This document shows, one piece after another, positions 1,236 through 18,857 of a stretch of 23,839 nucleotides of DNA; the first letter of the stretch is position 1, and every line of letters begins with the position of its first letter. Source of the DNA: a virus; the IMG/VR virus record IMGVR_UViG_3300023110_002430, positions 1 to 23,839 of that record, one strand, 5' to 3'. The notes beneath the pieces are model-generated. The model saw only the letters and a program-made list of their open reading frames with translations. It was not told the DNA's origin and did not search any database. The position numbers and the translations under genes were made by a program.

Positions 1236-1832
1236 ATGTGCAAAGCTAAAGACAATCATTATGAAATATACTCTGCAATTTTAACAGTGGCTAAACAACT
1301 TGAACCACTATATGGTACTAGTGATGAAATCGATGGTGTAATTACTTTCTCACTAGGCAACGCACTCTTCGGTGCACCTAATATTTTTAATGGAATGTGT
1401 ACGCCATCGTGTCAATTTACTCAAAAACCTGGACCAGGTAGAGACACAACATGGGAACATATATGGGGTCGTAAAAATTCATCAATCACAATTATAGAAC
1501 AAATTCGTAAAGGCAAAAGCGATAAATTTTTAGTTAATCTTATTAAGTCTCGTTGTAGAGTTGCTATTACTTTGAAGACAGAAAATCAAGCTCTGAAACC
1601 ATATCAGAATGATGAAGAACTAGCAAAGAAACATCCTCGACAAGCATATAAAGCAGCGGGACTTACTTGGGTTAATTGGGTTGGAAACAAGGTTTACAAT
1701 ATTGAAGGAATAACTTATAATACTCGTGAGGCAATATTAAACGATTATGATTTAACTCCTGAACAATTGACATACCGTTTAAGCAAAGCCGCGACAAAAT
1801 GGAAGGACTGGACAATTGAAAGAATCAATTAA
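1236..1832 (+). CDS. Unidentified protein with a possible C-terminal HTH/NUMOD-like module
   Basis: 198 aa from the ATG at 1236, which has a GGAAGG ribosome site 7 bases upstream. An in-frame ATG at 1221 lies only about 9 bases past the predicted transcription start and lacks a ribosome site, so I prefer 1236. The last 45 residues (Gly-Ile-Thr-Tyr, then a helix, LTPEQLTYRLSKA, then WKDW) look like the nuclease-associated modular helix-turn-helix found at the ends of some phage endonucleases. I see no clear catalytic nuclease motif in the N-terminal part, which contains two Cys and a TWEHIWGRKN segment. It is first in an operon with a DUF1599-like gene. Function unassigned. Confidence 0.7.
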   Translation: MCKAKDNHYEIYSAILTVAKQLEPLYGTSDEIDGVITFSLGNALFGAPNIFNGMCTPSCQFTQKPGPGRDTTWEHIWGRKNSSITIIEQIRKGKSDKFLVNLIKSRCRVAITLKTENQALKPYQNDEELAKKHPRQAYKAAGLTWVNWVGNKVYNIEGITYNTREAILNDYDLTPEQLTYRLSKAATKWKDWTIERIN

Positions 1833-2178
1833 AGTATTACAGCGTGCAGCTGAAATTCAAAATAAAAAAGGTAATGATTACCAAAATCCTAATTCACGAG
1901 TACGTCAAGCAATGTACTATCCTCGTGGTTGTGCTACTATTCTAGATACCATGCAAGCTAAAGTATTACGTATTCAATCTGTGCTTGAAGCAATGGAATT
2001 GGATAGGAATTATAATCCTAATTTCGAATCCCTTGAAGATTCATGCATAGATATAATTAACTATGCTTCATTCTTTATTGCATATATGAATGGAAACATA
2101 GATGGTCAGAATCCTGAGCATGATTTTTTAAATAGACCTAAAAGGAAAACAGATGAATCAGAAAACGTGGACAGCTGA
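1816..2178 (+). CDS. DUF1599-like (nucleotide modification associated domain 1) protein
   Basis: 120 aa, starting at a TTG (1816) with GGAAGGA about 9 bases upstream; it overlaps the previous gene by 17 bases. The helical pattern KKGNDYQNP..., then ILDTMQAKVLRIQSV, then SLEDSCIDIINYASFF matches what I recall of DUF1599/Nmad1, an all-alpha family often found with phage nucleotide-modification genes and distantly like MazG/dUTPase-type NTP pyrophosphatases. The acidic residues of the second and third helices would fit a metal site. In this genome, which also has a dCMP hydroxymethylase-like gene, a role in cleaning or shaping the dNTP pool is plausible but inferred. Confidence 0.65.
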   Translation: MKESIKVLQRAAEIQNKKGNDYQNPNSRVRQAMYYPRGCATILDTMQAKVLRIQSVLEAMELDRNYNPNFESLEDSCIDIINYASFFIAYMNGNIDGQNPEHDFLNRPKRKTDESENVDS

Positions 2179-3698: not shown

Positions 3699-3880
3699 GT
3701 CTCCATATCTTTGCATCGCCAATGGTAGCATTTTTTATGATACTCATATGGGCAGCATTGTTTGGTGATACTGTATTCTTTCTAATAGAAAATAATATGA
3801 TTGAAGAATGGATTATTTGTATACAGATTTATATTTCAATAATGTTATTAGTAAAATTTAAAAGGACTTTGTATAAATGA
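3695..3880 (+). CDS. Small membrane protein, two predicted helices
   Basis: 61 aa from the ATG at 3695, which shares ATGA with the oxygenase stop; an upstream in-frame start at 3674 lies inside the oxygenase and is less likely. Two hydrophobic stretches (about 8-30 and 38-55) separated by an acidic turn, and a basic tail (KFKRTLYK), predict a double-spanning inner-membrane protein. Family not recognised. Its stop overlaps the start of kdsA. Confidence 0.6.
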   Translation: MSLHIFASPMVAFFMILIWAALFGDTVFFLIENNMIEEWIICIQIYISIMLLVKFKRTLYK

Positions 3881-4662
3881 GAATTATCGCCGGACCATGT
3901 CAACATGAAACCTTTGAACAAAGTTTAGAAATCGCTTTACATTGTAAAGATGTTTGTGATAAGTACGAAGCTGAATATTATTTTAAAGCTAGTTTTGATA
4001 AAGCAAATAGAACAAGCTTGACTGGAAAACGTGGTCTTGGTATGCCAATGACTCTACATCATTTCCGTGATTTAAAAACCGAAATACCTGGTCTTAAAAT
4101 TCTTACTGATGTTCATAGTGTAGAACAAGTTAGACAATTGGGGTATCAAGGTAGTGGAAATCTAGTAGACGTACTACAGATTCCAGCATTTCTCTGTAGG
4201 CAAACAGATTTAATTGTTGAAGCTTGTAGAACAGAGAAAATAGTAAATATAAAAAAAGGTCAATTTCTAGCGCCTTGGGATGTTACAGGAATTTTAAGTA
4301 AAACACAAGGTGCGAAAGAAGTATGGATAACTGAAAGAGGTACAAGTTTTGGATATAATAACCTTGTTGTCGATTTCACTGGTGTTGACTATATGCTTAA
4401 TAATTATGACTGCGATATTGTTCTCGATGTTACTCACTCTGTCCAAAAGCCCGGCGGAATTGGACATTGCTCGGGCGGTGCTCCTATTCACGTGCCTGGG
4501 TTGGCTCGTTGTGGGGCTGCTTTGGGGGTCACTTCCTTCTTTATCGAAGTCCACCCTATGCCTGAATCCGCACCCAGTGATTCGGAAAGTATGCTTAGAT
4601 TAGATGATTTTGAAAGAGTTGTAGATGAAATCCACCGCTATTCTTATTCCAGCGAGATATGA
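3877..4662 (+). CDS. kdsA: 3-deoxy-8-phosphooctulonate synthase, metal-dependent class
   Basis: 261 aa, near the usual 265-285. Condenses phosphoenolpyruvate with D-arabinose 5-phosphate to KDO-8-phosphate, the first committed step to the LPS inner-core sugar KDO. Motifs: IAGPC at 4-8, KASFDKANR (37-45), QIPAFLCRQTDL (101-112), KKGQFLAPWD (126-135), RGTSFGYNNLVVD, DVTHSVQ (184-190), FIEVHP. C8, H187, E224 and D235 match the metal ligands of the Aquifex-type (class II) enzyme; the E. coli metal-independent class has Asn instead of that Cys. It overlaps kdsB by 38 bases and lies in one run with a PEP carboxykinase that could supply PEP. The stretch near 4430-4575 uses markedly more G/C at third positions than the rest of the gene. 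Confidence 0.95.
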   Translation: MRIIAGPCQHETFEQSLEIALHCKDVCDKYEAEYYFKASFDKANRTSLTGKRGLGMPMTLHHFRDLKTEIPGLKILTDVHSVEQVRQLGYQGSGNLVDVLQIPAFLCRQTDLIVEACRTEKIVNIKKGQFLAPWDVTGILSKTQGAKEVWITERGTSFGYNNLVVDFTGVDYMLNNYDCDIVLDVTHSVQKPGGIGHCSGGAPIHVPGLARCGAALGVTSFFIEVHPMPESAPSDSESMLRLDDFERVVDEIHRYSYSSEI

Positions 4663-5302
4663 GTCAAGTAGATACCCTGGTAAGCCATTAGTTAATCTTG
4701 GTGAAATGACTATGATTGAAAGAGTGTATGAGACTTGTGCTGATACAGGTTTAGATACATATGTACTTACTGATGACTATAGAATTGCTTCATTATTTAA
4801 TGACAATAATTGTCGATTAGATACTACAGAATATAATAATGGTACAGAAAGATGTGCCGGAGCGCTCGATAAAATACCAGAATATGATCAGTACATAAAC
4901 GTTCAAGGTGATATGCCTGATGTGAATAAGCATATGATTAATAAAGTAATATGGCATTTAAAGCATTACCCTATCACTACTCTTTTCACCGATATGCCAG
5001 AAAAAATGCGAAATGATCCTAACTCTGTAAAAGTAGTAAGAGGTGGAGATAAAGCCCTTTGGTTCGGAAGAGGAATGGCAGGCTATGGCGATTGGCATTT
5101 AGGAATTTATGGATATAAAAGAAATCCTTTACAATTCTATAGCAAGTATGGTATAATAGAAGAAGAAAGAATAGAACAACTAGAGCAATTGCGCTGGTTA
5201 AAAACAGGTTGGGACATAGGTATACTGCATACTGAATTTAATGGAATAGAAATTAATACACCAGAAGATGAAAAAAGGTGGAATGAAAAATGGCTAATAT
5301 AG
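4625..5302 (+). CDS. kdsB: CMP-KDO synthetase
   Basis: 225 aa, slightly short of the usual 240-255. Transfers CMP from CTP to KDO, giving CMP-KDO. Diagnostic motifs: IPARYESSRYPGKPL (8-22), the VLTDD metal-site strand (47-51), NGTER (72-76) and INVQGDMP (91-98); the C-terminal WDIGILHTEFNGIEINTPED segment matches the family's W...GIdT..D end. It follows kdsA with overlapping frames and overlaps the PEP carboxykinase start by 13 bases, so the three are likely co-translated. No KDO transferase is visible in the window; the product may feed host LPS enzymes or a phage glycosyltransferase elsewhere. Confidence 0.93.
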   Translation: MKSTAILIPARYESSRYPGKPLVNLGEMTMIERVYETCADTGLDTYVLTDDYRIASLFNDNNCRLDTTEYNNGTERCAGALDKIPEYDQYINVQGDMPDVNKHMINKVIWHLKHYPITTLFTDMPEKMRNDPNSVKVVRGGDKALWFGRGMAGYGDWHLGIYGYKRNPLQFYSKYGIIEEERIEQLEQLRWLKTGWDIGILHTEFNGIEINTPEDEKRWNEKWLI

Positions 5303-6480
5303 AAATAATAACTAACCCAACTGGCAGATCTCCTGAGAATAAAATATTTTATGGAAACTTAGCTAGAAAACTAGATTTATCAAGACCAAAATATAATAAG
5401 ATAGGCGAAGAAAAATATTTTTGGGAATTTTATGAAGATTTAAATGAATACAATTATAAACATTACTTGCATTTTTATACTTCTCGTCGCGGTTTTGCTG
5501 TCTTAACTAATGATGATAGACATGCTCAATTTGTAAGAAACATGTTTTCAGTAGTAGATGATCCAACTGAACATTATGCAGAATGGAAAATTATTCACAA
5601 CACTGAAATTAATTGTCCACCTACAATTGCTGTACATTTAGATGAAAAAATTATGTTAATTGGTGGAACTACTTTTCTAGGTGAAATTAAAAAAGGAGTG
5701 TTTGGTATTTTAGGATTTGAATTACCAGACGAAAATGTTTTACCAATGCATTGTAGTGCTTTTACTTTTAAGGATAAAACTAATCTTATGTTTGGATTAA
5801 GTGGAACAGGTAAAACAACATTAAGTAGTGATCCTCAATTTGGTTTAATTTCAGATGATGAAGTATCTTGGAATGAAGAAGGCATCGCAAAAGTTGAAGA
5901 AGGCTGCTATGCTAAATCAGAAGGTTTGTCACCTGAAACACATCCAACTATTTTTAATGCTGTGGAAGCTGCAAAAAAAGCTGAAACATTAGTAATAGAA
6001 AATCCTGGTGCTGCTAATGCTAGATTAAGTTATCCTTTAAAGTATGTAGAAAATGCATATATAAATGATACACAATTCAAACATCCTAATAATATATTTT
6101 TTCTAACAATGGATGCTACAGGTAGTTTTCCTCCAGTAAGTAAAATTTCTGGAGAAACTGTAAGACGGTTCTTTGAAACTGGATATACAAGTCAAATGCC
6201 AGGCACTGAAGCAGGTGTTGAAGAAATTAAAAAAATATTTTCACCATGTTATGGATCACCTTTTATGCCTAGAAATGTAAATGTATATAGCGATATGTTA
6301 ATGGAAAAAATAGAAGAACATGATGTTAATGTTTATTTAATTAATACTGGTATGGATAAAAAAGGTAAAAGATTTCCATTAGAATTTACTCGTAATTGTG
6401 TAACAAATTCTCTAATTAGAGGAGCCGAAGATAGAAGCGAAGAAGTCTTAGAAATCTTAGAAAGGATGATAAATGGGTGA
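5290..6480 (+). CDS. pckA: ATP-type phosphoenolpyruvate carboxykinase, shortened form
   Basis: 396 aa against about 530-540 in bacteria. Converts oxaloacetate and ATP to PEP, CO2 and ADP. Motifs in order: TGRSPENK at 11-18 (bacterial TGRSPKDK, oxaloacetate-binding Arg), GTTFLGEIKKGVFG (126-139, metal-binding Lys), LPMHCSA (151-157, metal-binding His), kinase-1a P-loop GLSGTGKTTLS (169-179), ISDDEVSW (187-194, kinase-2), GCYAKSEGLSPE, ANARLSYP (242-249), PPVSKIS, PGTEAG, GSPFMP and a TRNCV end. The first 50-60 residues of the bacterial enzyme and part of the C-terminal domain are missing, but every catalytic motif I can place is retained. PEP is a KdsA substrate, so its position after kdsAB suggests local supply. 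Confidence 0.92.
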   Translation: MANIEIITNPTGRSPENKIFYGNLARKLDLSRPKYNKIGEEKYFWEFYEDLNEYNYKHYLHFYTSRRGFAVLTNDDRHAQFVRNMFSVVDDPTEHYAEWKIIHNTEINCPPTIAVHLDEKIMLIGGTTFLGEIKKGVFGILGFELPDENVLPMHCSAFTFKDKTNLMFGLSGTGKTTLSSDPQFGLISDDEVSWNEEGIAKVEEGCYAKSEGLSPETHPTIFNAVEAAKKAETLVIENPGAANARLSYPLKYVENAYINDTQFKHPNNIFFLTMDATGSFPPVSKISGETVRRFFETGYTSQMPGTEAGVEEIKKIFSPCYGSPFMPRNVNVYSDMLMEKIEEHDVNVYLINTGMDKKGKRFPLEFTRNCVTNSLIRGAEDRSEEVLEILERMING

Positions 6481-6943: not shown

Positions 6944-7381
6944 ATGAAAGTAGGATTTACATGTAGTACGTTTGACTTGCTTCATGCTGGTCATATCGCA
7001 ATGCTAAGAGAAGCAAAAGAACAATGCGATTGGCTTATTTGTGGATTGCAAGTAGATCCGTCTTGGGATCGTGAAGAAAAAAACTCACCTATTCAAAGTG
7101 TAGTAGAAAGATACAAACAACTTTCTGCAGTAAAATATGTAGATGAAATCATTGTTTATTGTACAGAATCCGATTTACTTGATATAATAAACATGTATCC
7201 AATTGATGTACGTATACTTGGTGATGAATATAAAGATAAAGATTTTACTGGCAAAGATGAATGTAGACGTAGAAATATTTCTTTATATTTTAATAAACGA
7301 GACCACAGATTTTCGTCATCAGATTTGCGTAAAAGAGTATTTGAAAGAGAGCTAGAAAAAAATGATTCTCCAAACGGTTAG
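6944..7381 (+). CDS. Cytidylyltransferase-like protein (TagD/HldE-C group)
   Basis: 145 aa, close to glycerol-3-phosphate cytidylyltransferase (about 130). TCSTFDLLHAGHIAMLREAKEQCD (6-29) is the CTP-binding HxGH region, VERYKQLSAVKYVDEI the second conserved block, DVRILGDEYKDKDFTG the acceptor-site region, and HRFSSSDLRKRV (about 120-131) the RxSSxxL-type C-terminal motif. The enzyme would form a CDP- or ADP-linked sugar or alditol. It overlaps the next gene by 20 bases. Confidence 0.85.
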   Translation: MKVGFTCSTFDLLHAGHIAMLREAKEQCDWLICGLQVDPSWDREEKNSPIQSVVERYKQLSAVKYVDEIIVYCTESDLLDIINMYPIDVRILGDEYKDKDFTGKDECRRRNISLYFNKRDHRFSSSDLRKRVFERELEKNDSPNG

Positions 7382-8060
7382 TGACATACGTCAATTTTTT
7401 ATTGATGAACTAAATGATGAAGCCTTTACTATAGATAAAACAGGTCAAAAAACTATTGAGTTAATTGGTGCTAATTTTTTATGCACTGAACCTGCTATTT
7501 TTGGTACACCTAGTCAAGAATATATTAACAAAGAAATAGCTTGGTATGAATCAGGTTCAACAAACATTTATGATATAAATGGTGTTGATTCAGATGCACC
7601 TCCTCAAGCATGGCAATACGCAGCAAATAAACATGGTGAAATAAATTCTAATTATGGTCACTTACTTTTTTCTGAAAAATATCATTATCAATTCCAACAT
7701 GCCTTTGATGAATTACAAGCTAATCCAGATTCACGTCGTGCACAAATGATTTATAACCGTCCATCAATATGGTGTGAATATAATGAAGGCGGTAAATCTG
7801 ATTTTATTTGCACTAATGCACAAACATTTTATATTCGTGATGGCATACTTTCAATGGTATCTCAAATGCGTTCTAATGATGTTGTTTATGGATATAAAAA
7901 TGATTATGCTTGGGCACAATACTTAATGGATAAATTTGTAAGAGAATGGAATTCATTAGCAGAAATTTATGGTGAACATGGTCCTATTGAAAAAGGTATG
8001 TTAATGTGGCAAGTCATGAATTTACACGTGTATGAACGTCACTTCCATTTAGTTAAATAA
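7362..8060 (+). CDS. dCMP hydroxymethylase-like enzyme (thymidylate synthase fold)
   Basis: 232 aa, close to T4 gp42 (246 aa). Catalytic Cys is C150 in FICTNAQ; general-base Glu is E58. The position that is Asn177 in E. coli thymidylate synthase (dUMP-selective) and Asp179 in T4 gp42 (dCMP-selective) is D181 here, inside GYKNDYAW; the Cys-to-Asp spacing of 31 equals gp42 (C148 to D179). The SRRAQMIYNRPS block binds the nucleotide phosphate. The predicted reaction is dCMP plus methylene-THF to 5-hydroxymethyl-dCMP. A separate ThyX gene at 18171 would cover dTMP synthesis, which supports this one not being a thymidylate synthase. The stretch 7470-7900 is typical AT-rich phage coding sequence. 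Confidence 0.85.
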   Translation: MILQTVSDIRQFFIDELNDEAFTIDKTGQKTIELIGANFLCTEPAIFGTPSQEYINKEIAWYESGSTNIYDINGVDSDAPPQAWQYAANKHGEINSNYGHLLFSEKYHYQFQHAFDELQANPDSRRAQMIYNRPSIWCEYNEGGKSDFICTNAQTFYIRDGILSMVSQMRSNDVVYGYKNDYAWAQYLMDKFVREWNSLAEIYGEHGPIEKGMLMWQVMNLHVYERHFHLVK

Positions 8061-8069
8061 GGATATGGA

Positions 8070-8753
8070 ATGAAAGAATTTAGATGTGGTCCTGAATGGG
8101 ATGAAAGAATTGTAAAACTAAATCCAGCTAAAAAGATTGGTGTGTTAATGTCATCAGGCGCTGACAGCACTACACTTTTTAAATTATTATGGGACAATTT
8201 TCCTGATACAGAAATTAGAATTTTTAATGTACAGACTTCATGGGATCCTAAGAAACCTTTAATTGAAGAAATCCTTGAAAAATTTGACGTTGATTTAGAA
8301 TTAGAAATCATCGGAGAAAAGTATCATAATTGGGAAATGAAAAATCATTTTGCTAGACTTATGCTTGCGTTTCAAGATGTAAGAAATGATGAAGATATTG
8401 AAGAACTTTATTGTGGAAATATTTTGCCTCCACATCCTCAATGGTTTCCTCGTTGGAATGTAGACCAAAAGGGAATGGCAAAACGCCCATGGCTAACTAA
8501 TGATAAATTTTGGAAGAATCCGTTTGAACATATTGAAAAATATCATGTAATTGATTTAGGAAGACGGAATGGATTTGACTATATTTATGACACAACTATT
8601 TCATGTAACACTCACGCCACTGAACCTTGTGGTTATTGTATGGGGTGTAGAGAATTAGAATATGCATATGATCAATTAGATAATGAAAAAGGTCTATCTC
8701 TTGATGAGTGTGCTAAAATTGCAGTAAATATGTATGGAGATATAGGATGGTAG
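8070..8753 (+). CDS. QueC-like ATP pyrophosphatase with zinc site
   Basis: 227 aa. SSGADS at 28-33 is a PP-loop (SGGxDS family), and a C-terminal Cys cluster, C179, C187, C190 and C193 (PCGYCMGC), matches the zinc site of 7-cyano-7-deazaguanine synthase (QueC). QueC makes preQ0 from carboxy-deazaguanine using ATP and ammonia; in some phages preQ0 derivatives enter DNA. QueD, QueE, FolE and DpdA are not visible here, and the middle of the protein (GNILPPHPQWFPRWNVDQKG) is not typical QueC, so it could be a related amide- or nitrile-forming enzyme with another substrate. It sits between the dCMP hydroxymethylase-like gene and a methyltransferase. Confidence 0.7.
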   Translation: MKEFRCGPEWDERIVKLNPAKKIGVLMSSGADSTTLFKLLWDNFPDTEIRIFNVQTSWDPKKPLIEEILEKFDVDLELEIIGEKYHNWEMKNHFARLMLAFQDVRNDEDIEELYCGNILPPHPQWFPRWNVDQKGMAKRPWLTNDKFWKNPFEHIEKYHVIDLGRRNGFDYIYDTTISCNTHATEPCGYCMGCRELEYAYDQLDNEKGLSLDECAKIAVNMYGDIGW

Positions 8754-9304
8754 ACTTAGTTGAAAAATATAATCATGCTGCTAAGACATATTATGAAGAA
8801 AAATATGTTGATGGCGGATGGGAAAACAACATCTATATGCAAGATGAGAAAGATGCTCATGAGTTTTGGATGGAGAATATAGAAGAGGGAAAAATTATTT
8901 CATTAGGTGTTGGATCCGGACAAGACATTCCTATCTTACAATGGCCTGGACCAGAAAATTTTACAGGATATGATTTATCTCAAGGCATGTTAAATAATGC
9001 TAAAGAAAAGTTTAAAGATTATAACTTTGTTTTAGCTGATTGTAATGAAAATATAGATGATAGCTGTGATGTTCTTGTTAGTTTATTTGGTGTACCTAAT
9101 TACATAGGTCTTCCTAAGTTGTTGGAGCACTATAGAAATTTTAATGCTCAGCATGCTTTTTTTATATTTTATGCAGAATGGTATGATGATGGCATTGCTG
9201 AAGAATACCATAAATACACTAAAGAAGAATTACAAAAATTGTTGTATCCTTATAATCCTATTATTAAACAACTAAATGAAAATTATTATATCGTTAAATG
9301 GTAG
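8747..9304 (+). CDS. Class I SAM-dependent methyltransferase
   Basis: 185 aa. Motif I is IISLGVGSGQD (50-60), motif II contains the acidic GYDLSQGML at about 73-81, and VLADCNENI the next acidic loop; the later half FFIFYAEWYDD and YYIVKW completes the Rossmann core. No DNA target-recognition motif (NPPY, DPPY, PCQ) is seen, so a small-molecule or protein substrate is more likely than DNA. It overlaps the QueC-like gene by 7 bases; the coupling suggests a shared pathway. Confidence 0.8.
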   Translation: MVDLVEKYNHAAKTYYEEKYVDGGWENNIYMQDEKDAHEFWMENIEEGKIISLGVGSGQDIPILQWPGPENFTGYDLSQGMLNNAKEKFKDYNFVLADCNENIDDSCDVLVSLFGVPNYIGLPKLLEHYRNFNAQHAFFIFYAEWYDDGIAEEYHKYTKEELQKLLYPYNPIIKQLNENYYIVKW

Positions 9305-9454
9305 ATGTTAATAAAATTTTACATTACTTGGATATGGCATATTAGTACTTGGAAGTTTAAAATTACACCTAAAGAAGTTAGATGTAATAATGAAACTACC
9401 AGGTATTATTCTATTAGAATAGGACCTATCTGGATGAAGTGGTATGTAAAATGA
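9305..9454 (+). CDS. Small Trp-rich, basic protein
   Basis: 49 aa, ATG directly after the methyltransferase stop; its TGA overlaps the next start as ATGA. Seven Trp or paired aromatic clusters (TWIWH, STWKF, IWMKWY) and many Lys suggest a small membrane-surface or nucleic-acid-contacting protein. No family recognised. Accepted because of the exact end-to-end packing with both neighbours. Confidence 0.5.
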   Translation: MLIKFYITWIWHISTWKFKITPKEVRCNNETTRYYSIRIGPIWMKWYVK

Positions 9455-9699
9455 ACTGGTTAATAGTAGTAATATTTGGAACATTGCAAGGCGATGTTTA
9501 TATTTTTGAAAAGCCTAGGTTTGAAACTAGAGAAGAATGTATGGTTAGTATTAGAGATCCATTAGATCAAATCGCGTATCTTGGAAAATTAAAAGAAGAA
9601 TATGGAAAAGACATGCCAATATTAGCAGTAAACTGTTTGCAAGAAAAAGTAATAAAAGAAATATTAAAAAAATCTTTTGGTGAAGAGCAAGAAGTATGA
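9451..9699 (+). CDS. Small exported protein, paralogue of those at 21085 and 22240
   Basis: 82 aa from the ATG at 9451 (ATGA overlap), preferred to an in-frame start at 9439 inside the upstream gene. Residues 1-12 (MNWLIVVIFGTL) form a short hydrophobic signal-like start; the mature part contains F-E-T-R-E-E-C and later AVNC. The same plan, hydrophobic start, then an aromatic-(S/T)-x-x-x-C helix start, then a final strand ending in Cys, is seen at 21085-21312 and 22240-22413. The two Cys could form a disulfide in the periplasm. Function unknown. Confidence 0.65.
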   Translation: MNWLIVVIFGTLQGDVYIFEKPRFETREECMVSIRDPLDQIAYLGKLKEEYGKDMPILAVNCLQEKVIKEILKKSFGEEQEV

Positions 9700-10130
9700 A
9701 ATGGGATATACGATATTTAAAATTAGCAGAAGAAGTATCTAAGTGGTCTAAAGATCCATCTTCTCAAATCGGTGCTATTGCTGTAGGATCTAAAGGTCAA
9801 GTTTTATCTCAAGGATATAATGGTTTTCCTAGAGGAATAACAGATTCTCTTGATAGATATGCAGTGAGAGAAACTAAATACAAGTACATAGTACATGCTG
9901 AACAGAATGTAATTTATAACGCAACATACAACGGAGTATCATTAGATGGAGCTACCTTATTTGTTCATGGCTTGCCTGTTTGCAACCATTGTGCTCTTGG
10001 TGTTATTCAGGTAGGAATAAAAAGAGTTGTTATGCCAAGACAAAAAATAAAAGAACAGTGGGTCGAGTCATGGAATATGACTAAACAATTATTTGATGAA
10101 GCAGGCGTAGAGTATGAATTCATTTGCTGA
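9696..10130 (+). CDS. dCMP deaminase
   Basis: 144 aa. Zinc-dependent deamination of dCMP to dUMP. HAE at 67-69 supplies His and the proton-shuttling Glu, and PVCNHC (94-99) the two Cys ligands; the N-terminal helix plus KDPSSQIGA and GYNGFPRG segments are typical of T4 gp cd-like enzymes. T4-like phages use it to make dUMP for thymidylate synthase; here the acceptor enzyme would be ThyX. ATGA overlap with the upstream gene and a 17-base overlap with the radical SAM gene. Confidence 0.92.
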   Translation: MKWDIRYLKLAEEVSKWSKDPSSQIGAIAVGSKGQVLSQGYNGFPRGITDSLDRYAVRETKYKYIVHAEQNVIYNATYNGVSLDGATLFVHGLPVCNHCALGVIQVGIKRVVMPRQKIKEQWVESWNMTKQLFDEAGVEYEFIC

Positions 10131-10839
10131 AATGTATTCCAAAATTATAGAGGGATACAGATGGACAGTAATAAATGTAGACACTACTCATAGGTGTTTA
10201 CTTCAATGTCAGTTTTGTTCACGCCAATCTGAAGTTCAAGGACAACCTATGATTTCTGATTATAGGAAATCTTATGGTGATTTAAAATCAAAAGAATTGA
10301 GAAAGTTAACTAACTTCGTAAGAAGTGGCATTTCATTTTGTGGTCAGATTTCTGATCCTATCTATCACAAAGATTTTATTTCATTATTGTCATCAATAGA
10401 TGATGTAACATATTTAGAAAAAATCGAAATTCATACAAATGGATCTGGAAAAAAACAAGAGTATTGGGATGAACTTGTAGATGTAGCTTGGCAACTTCCA
10501 ACTAGAATAGAATGGCACTTTGGTATAGATGGCATAGATGAAAAAGCAGCTATTCATAGAGTTGGCCAAGATTTTCATTCAGCTTTTGAGGCAATGAAAT
10601 ATGTAGCATCAAGGCAAAGAAGAGAACCTGAATGGGAAAGGTGGAGAGTCATTTGGCAATACATTCCATTTGCATATAATGAACATGATATTATGAAAGC
10701 AAAAGAAATGGCAGATGAAATAGATGTAGAATTAATATTACTTACTTCAGGTAGGTTTAATCCTGACAGTCCAGTTGCTCCTCCTACAAATATAAATTTA
10801 ATTTCTAAAAAACTATTTGGTGAGAAAAAAAGAGTATGA
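10114..10839 (+). CDS. Radical SAM core protein
   Basis: 241 aa. C28-x3-C32-x2-C35 (CLLQCQFC) binds the 4Fe-4S cluster; SFCGQISDP and later IEIHTNGSG and GIDGIDE are the barrel strands that bind SAM. Related radical SAM proteins with a C-terminal SPASM domain are widespread in marine T4-like phages, substrate unknown. Here the protein stops after the core, and the SPASM-like part is a separate overlapping gene (10836-11150). A run of seven A (10825-10831) lies just before the stop, and the downstream frame is -1, so a fused product by frameshifting is possible. Confidence 0.88.
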   Translation: MNSFAEMYSKIIEGYRWTVINVDTTHRCLLQCQFCSRQSEVQGQPMISDYRKSYGDLKSKELRKLTNFVRSGISFCGQISDPIYHKDFISLLSSIDDVTYLEKIEIHTNGSGKKQEYWDELVDVAWQLPTRIEWHFGIDGIDEKAAIHRVGQDFHSAFEAMKYVASRQRREPEWERWRVIWQYIPFAYNEHDIMKAKEMADEIDVELILLTSGRFNPDSPVAPPTNINLISKKLFGEKKRV

Positions 10840-11150
10840 AACTTTATCCTCAATGTTGGAGCGTAACAATGGAAGGCGATTATAAACCCAATGATGGATT
10901 TCCTGGTGCAGGAAATGGTTTAGCCTTTACTGCTTCAGGGCATCTTCTTCCTTGTTGTTATTTAGATAAGTATCACAACTATAAAAATAATACTAAAAAT
11001 TTATGGGATGATGAATTAAGAGTTGATCGAAATGATGACATTCTTGATATTATAGAATCAGAACAGTGGTATAACTTTCACAAAGAATTATATGAACATC
11101 CTGAAAATGCATGTAAAGAATGTCACATGCATTGTTCTTCACCAAAATAA
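10836..11150 (+). CDS. SPASM-like auxiliary iron-sulfur domain protein
   Basis: 104 aa, ATGA overlap with the radical SAM stop. Cys at 7, 40, 41, 93, 96 and 100, with GLAFTASGHLLPCCYLD in the middle and a final C-x2-C-x3-C, resemble a SPASM domain: G-x-hydrophobic-PCC followed by NLW and a Cys-rich end. It very likely acts with the upstream protein as a two-subunit enzyme or by frameshift fusion. The gene is followed by a promoter for the AGT operon. Confidence 0.78.
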   Translation: MKLYPQCWSVTMEGDYKPNDGFPGAGNGLAFTASGHLLPCCYLDKYHNYKNNTKNLWDDELRVDRNDDILDIIESEQWYNFHKELYEHPENACKECHMHCSSPK

Positions 11151-11159
11151 AAAAAATAG

Positions 11160-11188
11160 TTTACATTTGTGTAAAAATATGTTAGAAT
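11160..11188 (+). promoter_or_regulatory. Promoter of the shared class upstream of the AGT-like gene
   Basis: -35 TTTACA (11160-11165), 17 bp, -10 TAGAAT (11183-11188). The downstream leader contains TCATAAATAC near 11201 and an AAGGAA ribosome site before the ATG at 11246. It would drive the glycosyltransferase, epimerase, dehydrogenase and methyltransferase genes. Confidence 0.8.
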
Positions 11189-11245
11189 TATATTTAATAA
11201 TCATAAATACGTATATCACACACTTGTAAATTTAAGGAATCATAA

Positions 11246-12493
11246 ATGACTAGAATTGCTATTATCCTTGGTCGTGGTACTGAAGGCTGCGGTGTAACAC
11301 AATGTGCTATTCAAATGCAAAAAGTAACAGGAGCAGATATCTATTCTGCAATTGATAAAAAATGGGGACGAGCTAAAGGATTAGAAATTGATCAAAAAGA
11401 ATTTGTAATGGGTACGCAGTGGGAATTAACTGCAGATGTTATTAATTCAATGTATGATTTAGCAATCATTTATTCAGTACCTTCTAAGTCTCATCCACAA
11501 GATTGTCAAGATAATTTTGTACCATTTTTACAGAGACTAAAAATACGTAAAGCGTTTATTAATGTAGACCATAAAGCTGCTTCAATAGCACGTAATGCTA
11601 ATCTAAAAGAAGTTTGCGAAAATGTTGATGTCATTATGACTCACAGTCTTGAAAATGATTTCTCAAAATTTATGAAGAAAAATAGAATCCAAACTCCATT
11701 AACTAAAATGGGTTTGGGTTTTGATTATGAGGATCACCGTCAAAAGTATTGGCGACCAATTGAAGAACAACAGCATAATATGGTTCGTTGGATTGGTCGT
11801 ACTGCAATGTGGAAAGGTCCTAGTTTAATGATTGATTTCCATCAAGATGCTTTGATGGAGCAAGGATTTATAACTGTCCTTGAAGGTTTAGAAGCTTCTA
11901 TACAATATCCTCTTGTTTTATATCGTGATAATAAAGAAGATAATCCTGTTGATCGCCGCATGGTTGAAAATTATTTTAGACCAGAAAAGAAATTTAATGA
12001 AGTCAAGTTTACACCTGACTTGTATGGTAAAGAAGAAACCAATAAAGGTGCTTATCTATATCCTCAATACATAAATAATGAGGCAATGATGAGAATGGCA
12101 CGTTCAGCATTTGGTTCAGATCTTTATCATTTAAAAGCAGAAACATATGGTAACAATATTGAAAATTGTCATGCTGAATGTATTGCATCTGGCACTGTAC
12201 CATTATTCCATAAACATTTCTGTGATAACGTAATACACCCTGTACAGGGTGATCCTATTAGTCAATGCAAAAATTCTGGCACTCTTGGTGTTGACTATAC
12301 TAATTTTAAAGAGTGTCAAGAAATGATGACAAAACTCAAAAACGATCCGTCTATGAGAGATGATTGGAGAGAAATGGCATTTGAATTTTGGAAACAACAC
12401 TCCAATGGTGAGGATGTTGTAAATGAAATTATTGATCTTGCTATTAACACAACTGAAAACCAACCACAAGGACTAGAGGAATTTTTCGTATGA
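11246..12493 (+). CDS. T4 alpha-glucosyltransferase (AGT)-like DNA hmC glycosyltransferase
   Basis: 415 aa, against 400 in T4 AGT. T4 AGT transfers glucose from UDP-glucose to 5-hydroxymethylcytosine in DNA. Recognised by an N-terminal RGTEGCGVT block (10-18) next to the Rossmann start, a DH at 108-109 in the position of the T4 catalytic-loop His, RWIGRTAMWKG (181-191) whose R and K would bind donor phosphates, TVLEGLEAS (210-218), and AECIASGTVPLFHK (310-323). These match T4 AGT from memory, in order and spacing. The GT-B fold is expected. The next genes encode UDP-sugar epimerase and dehydrogenase, so the donor may be a modified UDP-sugar. Overlaps the epimerase start as ATGA. Confidence 0.88.
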   Translation: MTRIAIILGRGTEGCGVTQCAIQMQKVTGADIYSAIDKKWGRAKGLEIDQKEFVMGTQWELTADVINSMYDLAIIYSVPSKSHPQDCQDNFVPFLQRLKIRKAFINVDHKAASIARNANLKEVCENVDVIMTHSLENDFSKFMKKNRIQTPLTKMGLGFDYEDHRQKYWRPIEEQQHNMVRWIGRTAMWKGPSLMIDFHQDALMEQGFITVLEGLEASIQYPLVLYRDNKEDNPVDRRMVENYFRPEKKFNEVKFTPDLYGKEETNKGAYLYPQYINNEAMMRMARSAFGSDLYHLKAETYGNNIENCHAECIASGTVPLFHKHFCDNVIHPVQGDPISQCKNSGTLGVDYTNFKECQEMMTKLKNDPSMRDDWREMAFEFWKQHSNGEDVVNEIIDLAINTTENQPQGLEEFFV

Positions 12494-13449
12494 AAATTTT
12501 AGTAACAGGTATTGCCGGCATGATCGGCTTTCACGCAGCCAGGCACTTCGCAAAAAATAATTGGGAAGTATGTGGCTTAGACAATTTTAATGATTATTAC
12601 GATCCACAATTAAAAGAAGATCGTGCTAACATTTTACAAGAAGAATATAATGTTCCTATTATGCGAGGGGACATTGAAGACTTTAAAGTAATTAATGACA
12701 ATACGTCATTTATGAAAGATGTAGATATTGTATTACACTTAGCTGCATATGCAAATCCAAGACACGCTCTTGAAGAACCGCAACCATATATTGATACTAA
12801 CATAACTGGAACACAACGTATTATAGAAGTATGTGAAGAACTAAACATACCAGTTGTATATGCATCAAGCTCCTGCGTTATGCATGGACAGCCTTTACCT
12901 TGGAATGAACATGATCGACCAGATTTACAAAACAATCCATATGGTTGGTCTAAACGAGTAAATGAATGTCAGTTTTCTCATTCTAAAATTTCACGTTCTG
13001 CAGGCCTTCGCTTCTTTACAGTGTATGGACCATATGGTCGACCAGACATGGCTCTATTTAAATTCACAGATGGAATCGTTAAAGGTGAACCAATCACACT
13101 TTATAATTATGGTGATATGAAACGTGATTTTACCTATGTACAAGACATCGTAGATGGTATAGAATTAGTAGTAGATAAAGCTATGAATGAAACCAATCAA
13201 GAATGGCATGAAATCTATAATATTGGTTATGGCCAACAGGTTAATCTATTAGATTTTGTAGATGAAATTGAAAAAAATCTTGATCGGAAAGCAGAAAGAG
13301 AATTAGCGCCTAAACATCCTGCAGATGTCCCTGAGACGTGGTCTGACACTACTAAATTACAAGCGTTAGGTTATAATCCTAAAACTTCTATAACAGATGG
13401 TGTTAAAGAATTCATTACATGGTACAAAAGTTATTATGGAGTTAATTAA
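12490..13449 (+). CDS. UDP-glucuronate 4-epimerase-like SDR protein
   Basis: 319 aa. Extended short-chain dehydrogenase: TGIAGMIG (6-13) binds NAD, HLAAYANPRHALEEP follows, ASSS supplies the catalytic Ser, and YGWSK is the Y-x3-K pair. GLRFFTVYGPYGRPDMALF, YNYGDMKRDFTYV and HPADVPETWSDT closely match LpsL/WbpP/GAE-type UDP-glucuronate 4-epimerases rather than GalE. Expected reaction: UDP-GlcA to UDP-GalA. It is placed between the AGT-like gene and a UDP-glucose dehydrogenase-like gene, which would make its substrate. A related C4-carboxylate decarboxylase or GDP-sugar activity cannot be excluded from motifs alone. Confidence 0.87.
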   Translation: MKILVTGIAGMIGFHAARHFAKNNWEVCGLDNFNDYYDPQLKEDRANILQEEYNVPIMRGDIEDFKVINDNTSFMKDVDIVLHLAAYANPRHALEEPQPYIDTNITGTQRIIEVCEELNIPVVYASSSCVMHGQPLPWNEHDRPDLQNNPYGWSKRVNECQFSHSKISRSAGLRFFTVYGPYGRPDMALFKFTDGIVKGEPITLYNYGDMKRDFTYVQDIVDGIELVVDKAMNETNQEWHEIYNIGYGQQVNLLDFVDEIEKNLDRKAERELAPKHPADVPETWSDTTKLQALGYNPKTSITDGVKEFITWYKSYYGVN

Positions 13450-14267
13450 TGAGAATGACAATTGTTGGCCACGGGTTTGTTGGCAAAGCTGTGGATTATG
13501 GCTTTTCAAATAAAGCTATTACTAAAACTATCATCGATCCTCTCTATAATACTACTTTAGATGATGTAGAATTAAGTGAAGATATAACGTTTGTTTGTGT
13601 TCCTACACCTATGGGTAAAGATGGATCGATCGATTGTTCTATTGTAGTTGATACTGTAACAAAACTTTTGCTACGTAGATCAGGAATCATTGTTATTAAA
13701 TCAACTGTGACACCTGACATAATTGAAAAATTTTCAAGACGCGGTGGAGGTGCTAGAGTAGTTTACAATCCTGAATTTTTAACTGAAAAAAATGCATGTG
13801 AAGATTTTGTAAATCCATCTATGCATATTTTTGGAGGAAATCCAGAAGCTACAGAAAGATTAGAACAAATCTATAAAGACTTTAGCTTATGCAAGCCGTG
13901 TCCTGTATATCACATGACGTCCACTGATGCAAGCTTTGTAAAGTATGGAATTAATTGTTTCCTTGCATCAAAGGTCTTATGGATGAATCAATTTTATGAT
14001 GTCATAGAAAACTTTGGAGGAAATTATGGTGTTATCAGTAACGCAATTGGAACAGATCCAAGAATTGGTAGGTCTCATATTACTGTGCCTGGGTTTGATG
14101 GCAAGCGTGGCTTTGGTGGCGCTTGCTTCCCAAAAGACACAGCAGCGTTTGCGAACTTTGCGAAATCTTTTTCCGTTTTAGAAAAAGTTATCGAAGAGAA
14201 TAATAAGTATCGTAATTGTTATGATAAAGATGAAAGAGAAAAGGCTCAGAATGTAAATTATGGTTAA
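13449..14267 (+). CDS. UDP-glucose 6-dehydrogenase-like, shortened
   Basis: 272 aa against about 390-450 in bacteria. N-terminal Rossmann GHGFVGKA (7-14), VPTPMG, IKSTVTP, YNPEFLTE, then an NCFLASKVLWMNQ helix with the conserved Asn/Lys, and GFGGACFPKDT near 223-233 with the catalytic Cys. It would oxidise UDP-glucose to UDP-glucuronate with two NAD. The C-terminal UDP-binding domain of cellular enzymes is absent, yet all catalytic residues I can place remain. ATG follows the epimerase stop with one shared base; the stop overlaps the next gene by 8 bases. Confidence 0.88.
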   Translation: MRMTIVGHGFVGKAVDYGFSNKAITKTIIDPLYNTTLDDVELSEDITFVCVPTPMGKDGSIDCSIVVDTVTKLLLRRSGIIVIKSTVTPDIIEKFSRRGGGARVVYNPEFLTEKNACEDFVNPSMHIFGGNPEATERLEQIYKDFSLCKPCPVYHMTSTDASFVKYGINCFLASKVLWMNQFYDVIENFGGNYGVISNAIGTDPRIGRSHITVPGFDGKRGFGGACFPKDTAAFANFAKSFSVLEKVIEENNKYRNCYDKDEREKAQNVNYG

Positions 14268-15450
14268 GTATGCAAGTATAGTTCCACTCATTGGTGGAGA
14301 AACAATAGCAATGCAAAATGTATTTGGGACAAAACCTGAATATATATTATCATATACGGACTTTGAAGCAAATGACAGCCAACTTCTTAATTATTACGAC
14401 AATAGCGTTCCTTATTATAAGCTTGACGTGGGTGGTCTTGCGCCTCATAGTGTCGATGTTGTCAACACTGTTTGCCCTTGCGCTGGCTTGTCTTCCCTTT
14501 CTCCTAGCAGCAATGCTGATAGCAGCACTAATGACTGGATGGTCAAGTCAGCAGAATATGTTTTGGAATCAATTCAGCCAACAGTTTTTTGGGGAGAAAA
14601 TGCTCCAAGATTAGCAAGCAAAATGGGTGAAAAGGTTGTAGCACAACTTCGTCAACTAGCAAGAAAAAATGGTTATACCTTTAGCATTTATAAAACTAAA
14701 TCTATTTTACATGGACTAAGTCAAATTAGAGATAGAACTTTCTATTTTTTCTGGAAAGGTAACTCAATTCCAAGATTTAATTTTTATAAAAGACAATATG
14801 AAAAAATTGAAGACACTATTCGTTCTGCTGCAACCAATGAAGCAGATCCAATGTTTGAAACTTTAACAAATAGTAAGACTCCATCTGAAGAACCTTTTTA
14901 TCAATACGTATTACAAGAAATGCATGGTGGTATTAGTCATATGGAATTTTTCAATTTAATTGAAAAAACAACCAATCCATTGCATTATATTGAAGACAAA
15001 GGTGTTGATTACGAAGATGTAGCAAAATGGATGGACGATAATGGCCATGAAAATCATGCACGTAAATGTCGTAGGATGGGTGAAAAGCTAAAAGCTGGTG
15101 GTAACATTATGAGAAAAACTACAGAAGTTGGTAAAAATTATATTGGTGCTTTTGTTGGTCATTTTCCAATGGAACTTACTCATCCAGATCAAGACAGATA
15201 TTTAAATATTAGAGAAGCTTTGTCAATTATGAAAATGCCTAAGGATTTTCAATTAGTAGGTGGTCGAAAAAACATTAATATGATTTGTCAAAACGTTCCA
15301 GTAACTACTGCACAAGACATGGCTGAAAATGTAAAAAGATTTTTAAGCGGTGATGCTTGTCTTGTTGAGTCAGATTTCGTAATTCAAGATAATAAATCAG
15401 AAACCTTTTGGTCTGAAAAACAACCGGCAACATTAGAAGCATTTATGTAA
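14260..15450 (+). CDS. C5-cytosine DNA methyltransferase-like protein
   Basis: 396 aa. Motif I-like PLIGGETIAMQNVFG (9-23), motif IV with catalytic C74 in VNTVCPCAGLSSLSP (68-82; canonical PPCQGFS), motif VI-like GENAP (112-116; canonical ENV), motif VIII-like QIRDRTFYFFW (155-165), and a C-terminal CQNVPVTTAQ resembling motif X. It would form 5-methylcytosine, or act on a related target, through the Cys adduct. The Q of PCQ is Ala here. If phage DNA carries hmC in place of C, a C5 methyltransferase would have little phage substrate, so host DNA or another acceptor may be the target. Third-position G/C rises sharply at 14395-14535, over the catalytic motif. Confidence 0.83.
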   Translation: MVKYASIVPLIGGETIAMQNVFGTKPEYILSYTDFEANDSQLLNYYDNSVPYYKLDVGGLAPHSVDVVNTVCPCAGLSSLSPSSNADSSTNDWMVKSAEYVLESIQPTVFWGENAPRLASKMGEKVVAQLRQLARKNGYTFSIYKTKSILHGLSQIRDRTFYFFWKGNSIPRFNFYKRQYEKIEDTIRSAATNEADPMFETLTNSKTPSEEPFYQYVLQEMHGGISHMEFFNLIEKTTNPLHYIEDKGVDYEDVAKWMDDNGHENHARKCRRMGEKLKAGGNIMRKTTEVGKNYIGAFVGHFPMELTHPDQDRYLNIREALSIMKMPKDFQLVGGRKNINMICQNVPVTTAQDMAENVKRFLSGDACLVESDFVIQDNKSETFWSEKQPATLEAFM

Positions 15451-18170: not shown

Positions 18171-18857
18171 ATGCATGCACGTCTCATATCCTATAGCCAA
18201 CCCTCAGGTCGTATCCACGCAGGAGAACTTGGTTACGCGGGGCTTGATAACATCCAAGACCTCGTCGCCTATTGCGCCCGTGTCTCCAATCCACAAAACC
18301 AAGCTAACACCAAAACAACAACAAAGCTACTTAAATATCTCATCAAGCACAAGCACTGGTCACCATTCGAAATGGCAAGCGCCTGCCTCGAAGTCGAAAC
18401 CACAAGAGACATTGCCCGACAATTCCTTCGACACCGCTCCTTTTCCTTTCAAGAGTTTTCTCAGCGGTATGCTGACATCCGCGATCTTAATGACAATTTT
18501 ATTTTAAGAGAAGCACGATTACAAGACACTAAAAATCGTCAAAATAGTATAAGTATTAATGATAAAGAATTACAAATGCAATGGGAAGGATACCAACAGA
18601 GTGTTATCAATCAAGCAAAAGCAGCATACGAATGGGCAATTGAAAACGGGATTGCCAAGGAACAAGCCAGGGCTGTTTTGCCGGAAGGAAACACAGTCTC
18701 TCGTCTTTATGTTAATGGCACCATTCGTTCTTGGATACATTACATTGATTTGCGCACGGCAAATGGGACACAAATGGAACATATCGAATTGGCAAAAGAA
18801 ATAGCAAAAGCAATATCTGCAATTTATCCTAGTATAATGGAGATCTTAGATGGGTAA
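18171..18857 (+). CDS. thyX: Flavin-dependent thymidylate synthase
   Basis: 228 aa, typical for ThyX. Converts dUMP to dTMP with methylene-THF, FAD and NADPH. The signature RHRxxSxxExSxRY is RHRSFSFQEFSQRY at 87-100 (Gln for the usual Asn); the second conserved block PEGNTVSRLYVNGTIRSWIHYIDLR lies near 180-204, ending with the usual Ser-less, Arg-rich dUMP site. GGAG precedes the ATG. About the first 315 bases use C-rich synonymous codons quite unlike the flanking genes; composition then drops abruptly near 18485 and rises again at 18650-18760, so the gene looks compositionally mosaic. Confidence 0.95.
   Translation: MHARLISYSQPSGRIHAGELGYAGLDNIQDLVAYCARVSNPQNQANTKTTTKLLKYLIKHKHWSPFEMASACLEVETTRDIARQFLRHRSFSFQEFSQRYADIRDLNDNFILREARLQDTKNRQNSISINDKELQMQWEGYQQSVINQAKAAYEWAIENGIAKEQARAVLPEGNTVSRLYVNGTIRSWIHYIDLRTANGTQMEHIELAKEIAKAISAIYPSIMEILDG

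Follow-up and report, generated by a model that had tools for sequence, protein, structure and literature searches.

A candidate cassette for glycosylated hydroxymethylcytosine DNA, with clamp-type peptides on its DNA-modifying enzymes, in a marine T4-like phage

Does a marine phage decorate its cytosines with sugar as T4 does, and if so, with which sugar? This question is raised by IMG/VR contig IMGVR_UViG_3300023110_002430, whose entire 23,839 nt form the window analysed here. An original prediction, made from the letters of the window, had proposed glycosylated 5-hydroxymethylcytosine (hmC) on the strength of a putative dCMP hydroxymethylase at position 7362 and a putative homologue of T4 alpha-glucosyltransferase (AGT) at 11246. 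Homology and phylogeny, the residues of the active site, the predicted fold and the order of the genes make glycosylated hmC DNA the best-supported reading of the window, and we hold it with high confidence. As a whole, the window is best explained as part of a marine T4-like phage with a DNA hypermodification cassette, a description that we consider reasonably probable. The nucleotide side of the proposed pathway is represented by the following genes:

7362..8060, + strand: predicted T4 gp42-type dCMP hydroxymethylase, 232 aa (sequence search, alignment, tree)
9696..10130, + strand: dCMP deaminase, which follows the hydroxymethylase in most relatives (PF00383 2.9e-18, phrog_174 4.4e-41, synteny)
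18171..18857, + strand: ThyX, a separate dTMP route (PF02511 5.3e-42)

Both open reading frames (ORFs) named in the original prediction were recovered, at 7362-8060 (232 aa) and 11246-12493 (415 aa). In phmmer searches, the 7362 protein matched the solved T4 dCMP hydroxymethylase (1b49) with an E-value of 2.5e-62, while the best thymidylate synthase in the PDB reached 1.4e-4. Its top phage matches were T4-type gp42 proteins at 47.8% identity. Alignment with E. coli ThyA placed Glu58, Cys150 and Asp181, the residues predicted to lie at gp42 spacing, at ThyA positions 58, 146 and 177, with Asp replacing ThyA Asn177 as it does in gp42. In ThyA numbering, the protein also keeps Glu58, Cys146, Arg166, Asp169, His207 and Tyr209. 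Asp177 (for Asn) and Thr147 (for His), both gp42-like, were present in 63 of 63 non-redundant relatives. In MetaGPA, modified and unmodified contigs are told apart best by positions 177 and 147 (PMC8670742), and in T4 Asp179 is the dCMP/dUMP determinant (PMC6400193). The tree joined the 7362 protein to gp42, apart from ThyA and SPO1, with support of 100/100 and very long outgroup branches; the prediction thus survives the comparison with dUMP-specific ThyA that it had itself proposed. If the protein were an ordinary thymidylate synthase, the AGT homologue would need another target. The label of phrog_160, a thymidylate synthase family matched by the protein, would agree with this, as would the AGT homologue of cyanophage S-TIM5, which occurs without a hydroxymethylase. 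We regard this as extremely improbable given the invariant Asp177/Thr147 pair, the tree with gp42, the huge score gap and the ThyX gene already encoded, as had been claimed, in the window; the score gap, residue pair and tree rule out a plain thymidylate synthase. A dUMP hydroxymethylase was likewise rejected, since the SPO1 enzyme retains Asn177 in the same alignment and branches elsewhere. By predicted activity, the 7362 protein is a T4 gp42-type dCMP hydroxymethylase.

The second enzyme of the proposed pathway would act on the DNA itself:

11246..12493, + strand: AGT-family DNA glycosyltransferase, 415 aa, with the C-terminal clamp-type peptide GLEEFFV (Pfam, PHROGs, PDB search, AlphaFold model)

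This protein is a homologue of T4 AGT by sequence and by predicted fold. It is about 28% identical to T4 AGT and matched PF11440 at 9.7e-31 (107.5 bits against a cut-off of 25), phrog_2888 in PHROGs at 5.2e-69 and, in a PDB sequence search, the T4 AGT structure 1xv5 at 3.8e-40. The blocks previously read as shared with T4 AGT are in place as GRGTEGCGVT, RWIGRTAMWKG and ITVLEGLE, at residues 9, 181 and 209. Structure prediction, which had been suggested as a check, bore out the assignment: the AlphaFold model had a mean predicted local distance difference test score (pLDDT) of 82.5, and a structure search with it returned nine T4 AGT chains at the top (E 1.7e-30 to 7.9e-28), with other GT-B enzymes next at 3.5e-9. 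Asp115, His116, Glu306 and Glu311 of T4 AGT are all retained in the alignment. A pattern scan of sequenced bacterial genomes found no AGT relative. Cyanophage S-TIM5, a marine phage annotated with an alpha-glucosyltransferase, encodes an AGT homologue (L160, 6754-8034), yet has no detectable dCMP hydroxymethylase genome-wide, and for this reason AGT homology alone is no proof of hmC.

Downstream, the AGT gene runs directly into three further genes:

12490..13449, + strand: UDP-glucuronate 4-epimerase-like short-chain dehydrogenase/reductase (SDR), 319 aa, immediately following AGT in 75 of the 76 relatives that could be evaluated
13449..14267, + strand: UDP-glucose 6-dehydrogenase, 272 aa, without the C-terminal domain (motifs and domains)
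14260..15450, + strand: DNA C5-methyltransferase homologue, 396 aa, with the clamp-type tail ATLEAFM (PF00145 9.4e-18)

None of these three, nor the dCMP deaminase, had figured in the original prediction. AGT and epimerase overlap by 4 nt, epimerase and dehydrogenase by 1 nt, and dehydrogenase and C5-methyltransferase homologue by 8 nt; UvsX lies 10 nt beyond. Contig G006, which overlaps the window with identical shared genes, carries DNA polymerase, phosphomannomutase-like and PRA-PH-like genes just upstream, so DNA polymerase and UvsX flank the cassette. In two scans of IMG/VR, at least 599 stretches encoded relatives of the hydroxymethylase and 88 encoded relatives of AGT; the best 80 of each were taken. 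Co-occurrence was counted in 87 hydroxymethylase-bearing viral contigs with at least 6 kb downstream. The epimerase was found in 45 of 45 contigs with AGT and 2 of 42 without, a Fisher P of 9e-23 that overstates independence, as the contigs share common ancestry and include a few near-duplicates. The corresponding counts for the dehydrogenase were 44 of 45 and 4 of 42. The operon is conserved in order as well as in content: the single evaluable contig in which the epimerase is not the next gene after AGT contains a split AGT hit, and where the dehydrogenase has been relocated upstream on the same contig (L079, L101 and L118), the epimerase still adjoins AGT.

The slot flanked by the hydroxymethylase/deaminase pair on one side and the C5-methyltransferase homologue on the other differs in content by clade. 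It holds AGT and the epimerase, mostly with the dehydrogenase, in 50 contigs; an NTP_transferase and a 414-aa clamp-tailed protein in 13; a 365-aa protein and UDP-galactopyranose mutase in 9 (PF03275 1.2e-52); and an AGT-like protein with a HAD/phosphotransferase-like protein in 6. About a dozen contigs have pyridoxal phosphate (PLP)-type and other enzymes of no known function there, L008 has a TAGT glycosyltransferase (PF20691 5e-19), and L074 (11756-15796, between deaminase and C5-methyltransferase homologue) has an inositol-phosphate synthase and two clamp-tailed proteins, one with a 5-hydroxymethyldeoxyuridine (5-hmdU) DNA kinase helical domain. For the 414-aa protein of the L017/L050 clade the structural model was poor (pLDDT 62), and its best Foldseek match, T4 beta-glucosyltransferase (BGT) at E 0.004, gives no more than a hint. 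The C5-methyltransferase homologue accompanies nearly all sugar modules and is missing from most PLP-type or unknown ones. In the sister clade with UDP-galactopyranose mutase beside the 365-aa protein (L009:1851-3952, L062:4036-6134), the gene content predicts galactofuranosyl-hmC. A mutase 60% identical to that of this clade occurs in Phage C48C1, without a hydroxymethylase. L056:2998-5843, L061:11108-13944 and L012:6083-8979 combine a hydroxymethylase with three other proteins, namely a PLP-type enzyme, one of phrog_13881 type (tested for L012) and one ending in LDEFMV or LTEFMV, and have neither AGT nor the C5-methyltransferase homologue; a non-sugar hypermodification of hmC is possible in these three.

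Which sugar would the AGT of the window transfer? The nearest solved proteins to the epimerase-like SDR are 5u4q (deposited as dTDP-glucose dehydratase) and then the UDP-glucuronate 4-epimerases BcUGAepi and MoeE5. From the UDP-glucuronate 4-epimerase set Thr/Ser126, Ser127, Ser128, Tyr149, Thr178 and Arg185 (B. cereus numbering) it has all save Ser128; equivalents of Tyr149, Thr178 and Arg185 are retained and the decarboxylase Glu is absent (residues per PMC7984243, PMC12338863). The dehydrogenase has the catalytic GFGGxCFPKD together with the NAD-binding and central domains. We read the two enzymes as the donor supply of this AGT mainly because in several clades the same slot is occupied by a nucleotide-sugar enzyme particular to that clade. 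The near-exclusive occurrence of the epimerase with AGT, together with the gene overlap, therefore points to UDP-glucuronate or UDP-galacturonate as the donor rather than glucose, an assignment, based on gene content, in which our confidence is evenly balanced. The earlier call of glycosyl-hmC thus stands as far as the hydroxymethylase and the AGT-family enzyme are concerned; should the sugar have been taken to be glucose, the UDP-glucuronate-type genes linked to AGT point to a different one.

Several observations weigh against one part or another of this reading, beside the shared ancestry of the contigs. Within the HDH motif of T4 AGT (H114-D115-H116), the 11246 protein keeps D108-H109, and His114 is replaced by Val107. 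In the AGT-linked epimerases Ser128 is changed to Cys, with the other carboxylate-holding residues kept. The dehydrogenase (272 aa) stops after the central domain and lacks the C-terminal UDP-binding domain. Homologues of gp1 (dNMP kinase) and gp56 (dCTPase), for which the original prediction had advised a search, were not found in six longer contigs from relatives, each of which may be a fragment. In Phage C48C1 the epimerase and the dehydrogenase occur along with the mutase module, but neither a hydroxymethylase nor an AGT was matched, and epimerase and dehydrogenase occur together in three AGT-less contigs (L056, L061, L068); the donor genes may therefore serve another purpose. This would be expected if the phage made T4-like glucosyl-hmC, with AGT drawing glucose from host UDP-glucose and the dehydrogenase and epimerase belonging to another pathway. 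The transferase would suit such a role, being homologous to AGT and sharing the T4 fold and most of the conserved residues. However, T4 does not need a phage dehydrogenase, the epimerase follows AGT almost without exception and is kept there through rearrangement, and sister clades have other nucleotide-sugar enzymes in the same slot. We consider glucosyl-hmC unlikely, though it retains a substantial share of the probability. The altered Ser128 would also agree with pentosyl-hmC, in which the SDR would decarboxylate UDP-glucuronate made by the dehydrogenase to UDP-xylose or UDP-arabinose. RB69 (PMC6024577) and Thanatos (PMC12838424) offer parallels, and T4-like phages with pentoses on hmC are known. 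Yet the replacement is Cys and not the decarboxylase Glu, Arg185 and Thr178 are kept, and BcUGAepi and MoeE5, both UDP-glucuronate 4-epimerases, are among the nearest solved relatives (PMC7984243), which makes a pentose quite improbable.

The C-termini of the DNA-modifying enzymes bear on where modification would take place. The AGT of the window ends in GLEEFFV and the C5-methyltransferase homologue in ATLEAFM; the DNA polymerase of the same virus, read on the overlapping identical contig, ends in ATLEDFFV, that of C48C1 in ATLEDFFG, and T4-type (RB32) gp43 and gp55 in SLDFLFG and SLDFLYEAND. A strict motif was present in 52 of 53 AGT and 61 of 66 C5-methyltransferase tails, against 2 of 561 tails from seventeen further families encoded in or around the cassette. 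Among 1288 distinct ORFs it occurred in 161. The 118 that could be assigned comprise 59 C5-methyltransferase homologues, 57 AGTs, one phosphoenolpyruvate (PEP) carboxykinase and one ThyX, and the other 43 are mostly DNA polymerases, 414-aa proteins, TAGT or other module enzymes. In T4, the C-terminal motif binds the clamp and is interchangeable among gp43, gp33 and gp55 (PMC2988020). T4 AGT also binds gp45, an interaction to which the share of alpha-glucosylation in T4 is not chiefly due (PMC13216743); T4-type AGT has no such tail (RB32 AGT ends in FDIITK). By their sequence, the AGT and C5-methyltransferase tails are T4-type sliding-clamp peptides resembling that of the DNA polymerase, and the binding that they predict makes replisome-tethered modification quite probable. 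In C48C1, a D12-class adenine methyltransferase (L159:16295-17179) also ends in a clamp-type peptide, STLDAFFG.

The position and tails of these enzymes must be weighed against a serious rival for the donor genes, the lipopolysaccharide (LPS) reading of PMC7029224. As proposed there for pelagimyophages, the dehydrogenase, epimerase, Kdo-type and cytidylyltransferase genes would supply host envelope glycans and remodel the host surface. Kdo-8-P-synthase-like (PF00793) and CMP-Kdo-synthetase-like genes are indeed present in the window, restriction systems are argued to be rare in SAR11, and such sugar genes have been read as LPS genes (PMC7029224). Against this, the operon's transferase is homologous to DNA glycosyltransferases and carries a clamp-type tail; its gene lies beside those for hydroxymethylase and DNA methyltransferase, with DNA polymerase and UvsX on either side. 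We assign LPS remodelling a low probability. The C5-methyltransferase homologue raises a separate point. In it and its relatives the PC, EN and QxRxR motifs are intact and motif I is changed to an invariant PLIGG (alignment). Because a fully hmC genome should offer this enzyme no substrate, hmC substitution may be partial, or the homologue may act on something else.

Taken together, the pathway would run as follows. The phage hydroxymethylase, judged by homology and active site, would convert dCMP to hydroxymethyl-dCMP, and hmC would be taken up into phage DNA, a step for which no kinase or dCTPase was identified. The AGT-family transferase would then glycosylate hmC within DNA, as its family and fold suggest, held on the sliding clamp by a C-terminal peptide that matches in type the one on the phage's own DNA polymerase, such that modification would track the replication fork. 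The dehydrogenase would make UDP-glucuronate from UDP-glucose and the epimerase UDP-galacturonate from it, placing a hexuronic acid rather than glucose on hmC. More generally, we suggest tentatively, and with slightly less than even confidence, that marine T4-like phages decorate hmC DNA by interchangeable clade-specific modules, each a phage-made donor and a replisome-tethered transferase: a negatively charged hexuronic acid here (glucuronosyl- or galacturonosyl-hmC) and other groups in sister clades, galactofuranose being the clearest.

Two further genes may contribute to the pathway:

1816..2178, + strand: NMAD1-like small protein, often beside the hydroxymethylase in relatives, a weak candidate nucleotide pyrophosphatase (PF07659 E 0.037, below cut-off; alignment)
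6944..7381, + strand: cytidylyltransferase-like gene, possibly part of the cassette (PF01467 6.5e-15; shares 20 nt with the start of the hydroxymethylase gene; often a neighbour in relatives)

The NMAD1-like protein was rejected as a gp56 relative for want of profile similarity; like it, the PRA-PH-type protein upstream of the cassette is a mere candidate for a missing role in the hmC pathway. The alphaproteobacterial host that the original prediction had in view finds no support. Among sequenced phages the closest is Phage C48C1, which is listed without a host (UvsX 76%), with 62% DNA polymerase identity versus 49% for the more distant Pelagibacter phage HTVC008M. A cyanophage origin was rejected: six contigs from relatives gave no PF00124 match that would mark photosystem genes, S-TIM5 serving as the positive control. 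A QueC-like PP-loop protein and a small methyltransferase lie between hydroxymethylase and deaminase (8070-9304), a position seen only in the closest relatives of the window. At 10114-11150, a radical SAM core and a SPASM-like domain are encoded as two separate overlapping ORFs, and radical SAM/SPASM pairs precede AGT in several relatives too (L057, L108). At 3877-6480, the Kdo-8-P synthase-like gene, the CMP-Kdo-synthetase-like gene (recognised by eye) and an ATP-type PEP carboxykinase gene are consecutive; for a phage, this combination of sugar and metabolic genes is unusual.

If this reading is true, hmC glycosylation occurs in marine phages too and is no enteric T4 speciality. The sugar genes of marine phages have been taken for LPS genes, and hydroxymethylases of this kind often carry the label thymidylate synthase. 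Cytosine decorated through hmC with a carboxylate sugar would be new in kind, and would matter for restriction, CRISPR and packaging as well as for the sequencing of marine viruses. In these phages, the clamp peptide could serve as a simple sequence tag by which to find enzymes that modify DNA in step with replication. The view that such a system is not generally expected in this setting finds no support, as coastal and sewage phages already provide a link between Asp177 hydroxymethylases and modified cytosine (PMC8670742).

The cassette can be compared with five known systems. With T4 (gp42, AGT/BGT, gp1, gp56) it shares the gp42-type hydroxymethylase and the AGT family with its fold, and T4 AGT also binds gp45 (PMC13216743); it differs in the AGT-coupled epimerase and UDP-glucose dehydrogenase, the C-terminal clamp-type peptide on AGT, the C5-methyltransferase homologue and the lack of detectable gp1 and gp56. 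RB69, with arabinosyl-hmC (PMC6024577), likewise combines hmC with a proposed phage-made donor and a module between DNA polymerase and UvsX, but its donor genes are different and the transferase of the window is an AGT homologue, unlike ORF003c. Bacillus phage SP-15 (PMC5977210) also has a phage UDP-glucose dehydrogenase and a glucuronate-derived sugar on DNA, although there phosphoglucuronolactone modifies the side chain of a hypermodified uracil and not hmC. The MetaGPA phages with 5-carbamoyl-hmC (PMC8670742), of coastal and sewage origin, share the Asp177 hydroxymethylase, dCMP deaminase and PRA-PH-type protein, with a carbamoyltransferase where the window has a glycosyltransferase. Finally, pelagimyophage group C (PMC7029224), a likeness in gene set by description only, has two 'thymidylate synthases' and a dCMP deaminase, and UDP-glucose 6-dehydrogenase is among the pelagimyophage genes; there, these were read as nucleotide and LPS metabolism.

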